Source of the DNA: a virus
DNA length: 23,820 nucleotides
Strand: one strand, 5' to 3'
Virus record (IMG/VR): IMGVR_UViG_3300017963_003053
Span: 1-23,820 of that record
The notes under the pieces are model-generated. The model was given only the letters and a program-made list of their open reading frames with translations. It made no database searches and was not told the DNA's origin. The position numbers and the translations under genes are program-made. This document shows positions 2,194-4,443 of the stretch, piece by piece; positions within the stretch are counted from its first letter, which is position 1, and each line of letters opens with the position of its first letter.

Positions 2194-2208
2194 CGTACTT
2201 CTCCAAAA

Positions 2209-2261
2209 AGGGTTTCGTAAAGGTAACTCATCAGAGCGGGGTACCAATCCCCGCTGACCCT
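2209..2261 (-). ncRNA. Hammerhead ribozyme, type III
   Basis: Read on the minus strand from 2261 to 2209. Stem III is AGGGU (2261-2257) with ACCCU (2213-2209), 5 bp. The cleavage triplet GUC ends at C2256. Stem I is AGCGGGG (2255-2249) with CCCCGCU (2241-2235), 7 bp, loop AUUGGUA. The core CUGAUGA is 2234-2228. A short stem II (2227-2217) has G-C, U-A, a U-U mismatch and A-U closing a 3-nt loop. GAAA is 2216-2213. Every core nucleotide of the hammerhead consensus is present in the right order, including A15.1-U16.1 and C17. Both chain ends lie in stem III, so it is type III. Cleavage would fall after C2256, giving the mRNA for the 1768-2193 gene a new 5' end. Stem II is short and weak, the main doubt. 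Confidence 0.82.
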
Positions 2262-2262
2262 G

Positions 2263-2305
2263 CGATTGTCTCGGCTACCTTTGGTAGGGCATGCGGAGAC
2301 AATCG
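2263..2305 (-). repeat. 10-bp stem with inner hairpin next to the ribozyme
   Basis: CGATTGTCTC (2263-2272) and GAGACAATCG (2296-2305) are perfect inverted repeats. Inside them CTACC (2275-2279) and GGTAG (2283-2287) form a second stem with a 3-nt loop. On the minus-strand transcript this element ends one base before stem III of the hammerhead ribozyme, so it could stack on it. Confidence 0.7.
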
Positions 2306-2648
2306 TTGAGTGTCTTATCCGGTTTGATTCGCTCGAATGCGTCCAACTACCCTTCGCATCATTCGTTTGTGTGTCGTTCGACTAGAATGACCCGCGTAAA
2401 ATCCTGCGGTAGGTCAGGGCGATAGCAGAGGACTACCGGATGAGAGCTAAAAGCCAGACCGTTATCGTCTAACTTTTCGTTTCTTCTTTCCCGTTCTCTT
2501 TAGAGAGCTAAGGGGGTTGCGTCTGGCGTTTTTGTCTTCTTACAGGGTACTAGGTCGGTCAACCTGTTTTCGCCTGTCGCGGGTCCAAAAACGTTCCCTT
2601 CTTCCGCAAGCCGTTCAAGTTATCAAAGAGCGTAATTCAACTACGTAT

Positions 2649-2677
2649 AATATAAGGTATTATCGGGACAGAGTAAA
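2649..2677 (-). promoter_or_regulatory. Promoter TTTACT-N17-TATATT for the ribozyme-led operon
   Basis: On the minus strand a TTTACT -35 box (2677-2672) is followed after exactly 17 bases by TATATT (2654-2649). The same -35 box and spacing occur at 4444-4472, 4647-4675 and 20953-20981. It points to the operon starting at 2193 and would give a leader of about 450 nt. Confidence 0.6.
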
Positions 2678-2940: not shown

Positions 2941-4365
2941 TTAGGCCGCTATAGGCTGCTTATTGCGTAAGTGGGTCACAGCGACTGGTTTGACGTTACC
3001 TGCCCCTTGGAACCCTTGCGATACTTTTATCTCAGCAGACTTATCTTTCAAGGATAAGACTCTTCCCTGCCAAGGCTCATCTACTCCGTTTACAACCCAG
3101 ACAAGTTTACCTTTGAGCTTAGTAGGAGCCTTTGTTGTTGTCTTAGTGGACTTACTCTTTTTGGAGGAGGGTCTGGTTGACGCCTTGCGCTGTTCTCGTC
3201 TTTTGCGGATAGCTCTTTTCTCTTTTTCAACCTGTTCGCTTTGGAACTCCTCATTCTTGGCAGCGTCACCTAAGTCAATTCCCCCCACTGTGGGTATCTC
3301 AGAGAGAACCGGCCAGCCGTCCTTTTCAACAAACTTGAGAGCAATACCCTCTTTGGTAATCTGCTTTTCGCGAATATAGAGATTCCACGCTTTTGCAATA
3401 ACAGAGGTACGAACAAGAACCGAATCACCACCGTCGTCGATGATCTTCTGGAGAGAATACTTGATAGGAGACACTTCATCAGCATCGTTTGCTAACAACA
3501 CGAAGAAGTCACAAGCGGCATCCCAGTTTTTCCAACTTAGATGTTTTTCATCTTGTTCCTTCCGGTACTTTGTTGGATTGGTAGAAGAACAACCCATGAG
3601 GTAGAGCATCCCACAAGCATAGCCTGTTCTCAACAGCCGTCCAATCTTTCCTTCCTTGTCATTCTCGGCATGGATATGTTGAGCAGCCTCAAGAATCTTT
3701 GGATGGTTGTCTCCAAAGGCAATCAGTTCTGGGTGAGTGTCTTTGAGACCAGGATGAAACGCTTTTACATACCCAGTACGGTACCAGATGTGCTTTACGC
3801 CATAGCTAAGAATACCTGCTAGGTCTTTCCGTTCTTTAGGCCTGATCTTTTGGAGTAGATCAGACCGAAAGTAAACGTCAGTTAGGGATCGGGGTTTACA
3901 AGTATCCATAGTATTGACTGTTGTGTCATCTTCTTCCACCCCATAAACAATGGCAGTAGAAATGGTTGGTGAAGAGGACCATTCAGGGTAAGCATTAGGG
4001 TCTTTTTCGTATGCTTGGTTTGCGAGGACAAGGGCGATAAGGGTATGTTGCCCGTTTAGAACTAATCCTGTTTTACCAATGATGCGTGTCTCTCCATTAA
4101 AGCACCATCGGCCACGTAGAATCTCCTGTTGAAGCTTTTCAACGTTTGAAAGGTACAAAGGACGATTACGAATGTTGTTGATGCAGCGCACTTTCTTTTG
4201 GTACAAGTCTTTTAGAAGAAAGTCTGTTCCAAAAGTAGAGTTGCCCTCTTCAGTCCACCCTAGTAGCTTTTTGGCTAACCCAATGTCTAGTCTTTGTACA
4301 AACTCTGCCTTAGGTTTGTACGACACAACACGATGCTTGGCCTTCCGTTGCTGCTTCTTGACCAT
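2941..4365 (-). CDS. ParB-like domain protein
   Basis: 474 residues from ATG 4365 (GGGAG 8 nt upstream); an in-frame ATG at 4398 would add 11 residues, and I prefer 4365. Residues 70-115 carry the ParB/sulfiredoxin-like signature: a helix (NVEKLQQEILRGRW), then a strand pair ending in LVLNGQHTLIAL, matching the D/N-G-Q-H-R/T motif of phage and actinobacterial ParB-like proteins. The middle is helical. Residues 380-430 are Lys/Ser/Thr-rich and basic, and the last 50 residues resemble a small SH3/KOW-like barrel (KLVWVVNGV...WQGRVLSL). ParB-fold proteins are variously DNA binders, CTPases or nucleases; no ParB partner or parS-like site is evident. It is monocistronic, with its own promoters and terminator. 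A regulatory or DNA-tethering role is inferred. Confidence 0.65.
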   Translation of the reverse strand: MVKKQQRKAKHRVVSYKPKAEFVQRLDIGLAKKLLGWTEEGNSTFGTDFLLKDLYQKKVRCINNIRNRPLYLSNVEKLQQEILRGRWCFNGETRIIGKTGLVLNGQHTLIALVLANQAYEKDPNAYPEWSSSPTISTAIVYGVEEDDTTVNTMDTCKPRSLTDVYFRSDLLQKIRPKERKDLAGILSYGVKHIWYRTGYVKAFHPGLKDTHPELIAFGDNHPKILEAAQHIHAENDKEGKIGRLLRTGYACGMLYLMGCSSTNPTKYRKEQDEKHLSWKNWDAACDFFVLLANDADEVSPIKYSLQKIIDDGGDSVLVRTSVIAKAWNLYIREKQITKEGIALKFVEKDGWPVLSEIPTVGGIDLGDAAKNEEFQSEQVEKEKRAIRKRREQRKASTRPSSKKSKSTKTTTKAPTKLKGKLVWVVNGVDEPWQGRVLSLKDKSAEIKVSQGFQGAGNVKPVAVTHLRNKQPIAA

Positions 4366-4443
4366 ACTACAGGCTCCCAATCTAAAAAGTAGTAGCATCT
4401 CTCATGACATCGTCACATGCCGAGCCACCGGATGCTCGAAACC

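Follow-up and report, generated by a model that had tools for sequence, protein, structure and literature searches.

A boxA-bearing phage leader with a conserved RNA junction and a hammerhead ribozyme before the first gene: a candidate nut-like element

Organization of the leader

The stretch of DNA analysed here (the window) is a viral record of 23.8 kb from an uncultured phage and encodes PolA, Sak4, an exonuclease and a glucosyltransferase. On its minus strand the terminator of an upstream gene is followed by a promoter, about 450 untranslated nucleotides, a type III hammerhead ribozyme, a Shine-Dalgarno (SD) sequence and an ATG at 2193. The leader occupies positions 2194–2677, a range correctly given in the original prediction, and is read from 2677 to 2194. 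Upstream lies a gene for 485 amino acids (2941–4398, minus strand). Its end is marked by an intrinsic terminator read from the sequence (2908–2859, minus strand), in which a 12-bp stem, GGCGGGTATTCC/GGAATACCCGCC, is followed by TTTTT. This predicted terminator sets the transcription unit of the leader apart from the 485-aa gene.

A sigma-70-like promoter, TTTACT-N17-TATATT, had been proposed at the start of the leader and is found at 2677–2649 (minus strand), with the motif CCGATA in its spacer. Taken alone, the match is at chance level (5 sites in 6 kb against 6.8 expected). Related phages keep a promoter at the same place, with the form TTKACT, a CCGATA-like spacer and TATANT. The spacer word between the −35 and −10 elements reads CCGATA or CCGATT in the promoters of the window, L050, L054, L052 and L049. 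Transcription would start near 2642. An inverted repeat, AAATAGG-CCCCCCCG-CCTATTT (2696–2675, minus strand), overlaps the −35 element and is a possible operator. Inverted repeats at or near the −35 element occur in five phages (window, L050, L054, L052 and L057) with a different sequence in each, and they look like operators.

The original prediction had also described an untranslated, structured leader that ends in a ribozyme and has no gene for about 450 nt before the first ATG, and both points hold. No credible open reading frame was found in 2194–2650, where the longest has 44 aa and lies on the plus strand; a hidden reading frame in the leader was thus rejected. Since the leader does contain ATGs lacking an SD sequence, the "first ATG" is to be understood as the first with an SD (GGAG, 2204–2201, minus strand). 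It opens a gene of 141 aa (2193–1768, minus strand). The predicted fold of the leader has −136.6 kcal/mol, compared with −124.5 ± 5.6 kcal/mol for shuffled sequences (z −2.15). The proposed 10-bp hairpin was recovered at 2305–2296/2272–2263 (minus strand), ending one base before hammerhead stem III. It is likely to act as an insulator for the folding of the ribozyme, as judged from the modelled structure, and similar hairpins are seen in L054, L057 and L070. In the window, no Rfam family scored above its gathering threshold within the leader; apart from the hammerhead, the matches were at chance level.

Conservation of the layout in distant relatives

A DNA search of the phage collection gave no near relatives, and scanning with one protein at a time, the AAA ATPase or the product of the 141-aa gene, brought up no relatives either. 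Searches with PolA and the 485-aa gene revealed many distant relatives, whose PolA proteins share about half of their residues with that of the window. Several of these loci carry two labels (L053 is L002, L050 is L007, L054 is L198, L052 is L220, and L074 and L232 are one contig). Promoter, boxA, leader, hammerhead and ribosome-binding site (RBS) follow the homologue of the 485-aa gene in the window, L053, L050, L057, L054 and L052. L070 and L074 joined the set through a motif scan. The leader has the orthologous position in each relative. By sequence comparison, its layout is kept among related phages though most of the sequence has changed.

The first genes after the ribozyme are unrelated among these phages, and the leader would therefore serve the operon. 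The idea that it is tied to one particular downstream gene was rejected for the same reason. In L074, the second gene encodes an AAA ATPase that is 49% identical to that of the window.

The hammerhead ribozyme

The ribozyme (2262–2207, minus strand; predicted cut at 2256/2255) has the core CUGANGA ... GAAA, an NUH cleavage site, stems I–III and an open stem III, as expected of a type III hammerhead. Read along the RNA, its parts are GGGUC^A, a stem I loop AUUGGUA, CUGAUGA, a two-pair stem II with the loop UACCUUU, GAAA and CCC. Stem I is formed by 2255–2249/2241–2235, the core segments lie at 2234–2228 (CUGAUGA) and 2216–2213 (GAAA), and a pseudoknot joins GGUA (2245–2242) with UACC (2225–2222).

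The match to Rfam family RF00008 (30.7 bits, E 2e-4) is under the gathering score of 48.5. This score and the promoter match, which is at chance level in the window alone, would fit a chance explanation, in which a long intergenic region happens to hold a sequence resembling a hammerhead and a word resembling boxA, and folds in an ordinary way. Comparison of the relatives speaks against it. In an alignment of hammerheads from eight phages, 97.9% of the cells are paired and 12 of the 18 pairs have changed on both sides. The covariation score is 0.633 compared with 0.194 in shuffles (0 of 500 reach it), and it is destroyed by sliding the partners. The loop–loop pseudoknot covaries as well (GGUA/UACC, GGCA/UGCC, CGCA/UGCG). 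A search for compensatory changes, suggested along with the original prediction, is thus passed by the hammerhead, and also by the junction helices described below, which differ in sequence. A clade model built from the eight sequences scores 71.9 bits (E ~1e-19) on the window, which is one of its training sequences, and 40 bits (E ~1e-9) on the held-out L074/L232. The orthologous position of the leader is a further argument against chance. For the ribozyme the chance explanation is already refuted, and for the region as a whole we regard it as very improbable. Despite the Rfam score, comparison settles the assignment of the window element as a type III hammerhead.

The hammerhead of L052 is type II by sequence inspection, and the other leaders end in type III. 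In L053 and L074 the core reads UUGAAAA, in which C3-G8 is replaced by U3-A8 (L053:6829; L074:2757–2703, minus strand), and the SD overlaps the 3' strand of stem III in both. Such a U3-A8 pair is known from natural hammerheads and, according to a passage in PMC3088659, was noted to be active in vitro in earlier work. Second hammerheads of type II are present in the same operon at L050:6807 (L007 898, minus strand), just before an HNH gene, and at L054:7880. A degenerate hammerhead at L054:6917–6969 (26 bits), whose stem III is poor, apparently falls between types II and III and is possibly decaying.

The start codon lies 11–19 nt past the ribozyme in eight of nine type III leaders; in L050 a second ribozyme, type II, occupies the space between the type III hammerhead and the start codon. 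After the predicted cut, the mature 5' UTR would begin with stem I and have 55–62 nt (six leaders measured). This nearly constant length would suit a simpler role, in which the ribozyme merely yields a protected mRNA 5' end (a 5'-OH and a hairpin), boxA merely carries polymerase across an untranslated stretch and the rest of the leader is regulatory filler. Multiple intergenic hammerheads also favour such a role. They occur in the other phage contigs L019, L021, L023 and L029, with two or three each and some right before start codons, and within this leader family in L007 and L054.

A boxA close behind the promoter

The original prediction had missed two elements upstream of the cut, a boxA and a junction domain. 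The boxA, GCTCTTTGATAACT, lies at 2631–2618 (minus strand) behind the promoter and, with conserved downstream bases (TTGAACGGC), covers 2631–2610. It is present in eight leaders. A loose word, [N][ACT]TCTTTGANAA[CT], gave 15 matches in 3.03 Mb of PolA relatives (both strands) where about 4 were expected. Eight of the 15 head a minus-strand unit, six of these within a leader that ends in a hammerhead; the six include L052/L220, whose type II ribozyme was assigned by inspection. For a tighter word, GYTCTTTRANAA, simple arithmetic gives rough odds of about 4e-4 per 450-nt leader. Among ten boxA members, two have GATCTTTGA, which departs from the consensus at one base.

The gamma-proteobacterial boxA consensus is GYTCTTTAANA (PMC5725501). 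The window sequence GCTCTTTGATA is one base off this form. About 140–200 nt upstream of 16S, the rRNA leaders of Hydrogenedentes, Elusimicrobia and Binatia have the words GCTCTTTGAAAA, GGTCTTTGACAA and GCTCTTTGAAAG. Since the same GA form is found in the 16S leaders of three phyla, the boxA of the window was considered rRNA-type; it agrees with the boxA consensus, taken as either the gamma form or the GA form seen in other rRNA leaders.

The downstream bases ACTYRARCGGC are kept in most boxA members. Together with boxA they can form a small hairpin over boxA itself (GCU-C-UUUGA-NAAC-UYRAR-C-GGC), so that a binder other than NusB/S10 is possible. Leaders with a ribozyme and without boxA were found at L219:1154–1102 (minus strand) and L049:6958–7010; thus boxA and ribozyme can separate.

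The extended boxA word was also used as a route to the host. It gave 75 genome matches without a link to rRNA, mostly coding or chance, and they were rejected as host pointers. In one Elusimicrobia MAG (L143:445–464), the extended word is flanked by two tRNA-Lys genes that belong to an array of 25 tRNAs.

A three-way-junction domain

Between boxA and the ribozyme, a conserved RNA domain folds as a three-way junction (2445–2313, minus strand). It is shared by the window, L054, L057 and L053. A linker some nine bases long (CCUGACCUA in the window, 2418–2410; CCUGACCCA in L054, CCUAACCUA in L057 and CCUACCCCA in L053; consensus CCURACCYA) is followed by the hairpin CCGC...GCGG (hairpin D, 2409–2392), directly by helix E (2391–2385/2364–2358) and then by the 3' strand of helix C (2422–2419/2357–2354). 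The helix sequences differ in each phage. The exact topology is present in the minimum-energy fold of three of the four members and lies 0.6 kcal/mol above the minimum in L057, where an A-G mismatch closes helix C. When the flanks were shuffled, it appeared in 0 of 400 cases for each of the four. L070 has a related but incomplete form.

The domain is absent from Rfam. A search with the junction motif gave 36 new viral matches, none with boxA or a hammerhead. A lax helix test is passed by about one in six motif-only chance matches in other viruses and is weak alone; we therefore put the weight on the exact topology and the shared context. On this comparison, the four members make the domain a candidate RNA family, for which an exact search motif is available.

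Topology and linker are kept in phages whose leader sequence is otherwise unrelated, which argues against the leader being filler. Likewise, the short leaders of L050 and L074 retain boxA. Reporter constructs in which boxA shields untranslated RNA from Rho (PMC4807359) would still fit a ribozyme that merely protects the mRNA end, and we consider that explanation unlikely.

The conserved domain and boxA lie wholly within the part that would be cut off, and therefore the leader itself is possibly a functional small RNA, as originally suggested. Given the boxA, a role in cis on RNA polymerase is at least as likely as a small RNA acting in trans. The main alternative to the nut-like reading developed below takes the leader as a small-RNA gene with the ribozyme as its 3' end processor. 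The RNA of about 387 nt would act in trans, for instance as a sponge whose boxA withdraws NusB/S10 from the rRNA operons of the host, or via the junction domain, and boxA would also aid folding. The leader is well folded, and there are published parallels: when lambda nutL RNA is transcribed at a high level, Nus factors are titrated and rRNA is expressed less, and tethering through boxA was proposed to guide the folding of rRNA (PMC4807359). However, L050 and L074 keep boxA and ribozyme with only 84–89 nt from boxA to the cut and without the full junction domain, so the arrangement does not depend on a large RNA. Moreover, the ribozyme sits against the RBS, which would be needless for a pure small-RNA gene. 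We hold this alternative to be possible, though rather doubtful.

Discussion

We propose that the region is a nut-like, boxA-loaded 5' leader of the leftward operon, which is separated from the mRNA by a ribozyme. This reading builds on the observed arrangement, conservation and covariation of the parts and on analogy, and we give it a probability of about 0.5. Once past the promoter, polymerase would transcribe boxA in the first tens of nucleotides. NusB/S10 of the host and further Nus factors would then load on boxA, aided by or jointly with the junction domain, and the modified polymerase would read through the untranslated leader and the operon by antitermination. In the cell, the hammerhead would cut the nascent RNA about 387 nt from its 5' end. 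The mRNA would thereby be freed from the boxA complex, and would begin with a 5'-OH and the stem I hairpin, its start codon lying about 60 nt from the new end. In general, mRNA decays more slowly when it starts with a 5'-OH and a hairpin, and the same may apply here.

Release from the boxA complex could also affect translation. Complexes of boxA and Nus factors travel with polymerase, loop the RNA and repress suhB translation, and repression is seen even at 100 nt between boxA and SD (PMC5725501). In lambda, nutL represses N from about 200 bp upstream, and RNase III modulates this (PMC5725501). Unmasking of the RBS through cutting was rejected as a general explanation: predicted SD pairing is unchanged in five of six leaders and altered in one (L057). 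Therefore, any effect on translation would have to act via the Nus loop or RNA stability.

The closest parallel is the lambda pL leader, which consists of nutL (boxA/boxB), an RNase III site and gene N (Wilson et al. 1997, 2002, as cited in PMC5725501). In both, a phage operon begins with a promoter, a boxA near the RNA 5' end and a structured stretch, and a cut, predicted in the present case, separates the boxA complex from the first gene's RBS. The ribozyme would do here the job that RNase III does in lambda, between nutL and N. In contrast to lambda, the cut would be made by a hammerhead within the RNA itself and a three-way-junction domain lies in between; the lambda site has a boxB hairpin and an N-type protein, and no lambda-type boxB was identified here. 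In an rRNA leader, too, this boxA word, read by NusB/S10, closely follows the promoter of a folded RNA that is not translated, whereas here a ribozyme and protein genes come next instead of rRNA. Structured RNAs early in a transcript that could act on polymerase are also represented by HK022 put RNA and EAR-type antiterminator RNAs. The present leader is similar to these by description and differs in having a boxA.

The hammerheads of phages and prophages in the passages of Perreault et al. 2011 (PMC3088659) cited here are likewise small and beside a gene, with a short stem II and a loop–loop pseudoknot between stems I and II. The rare U3-A8 core (here in L053 and L074) and several hammerheads per operon, as in some relatives, are shared as well. 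Those passages do not describe a boxA, a shared promoter or a conserved upstream RNA domain. The hammerhead is thus of a known kind; what appears to be new is that it occurs together with boxA and the junction domain. Tentatively, and with less confidence than in the nut-like reading, the leader may represent a new class of phage RNA, a boxA-loaded antiterminator with a three-way junction that is self-cut by a hammerhead and is active afterwards on polymerase or in sequestering Nus factors.

The passages cited here from PMC3088659 and PMC6155905 treat it as an open question what hammerheads do in phage genomes. In this family the ribozyme is fixed between an rRNA-type boxA and the first RBS across distant phages. 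Its place therefore suggests a concrete, testable role, in which the hammerhead would cut an antitermination leader off the mRNA.
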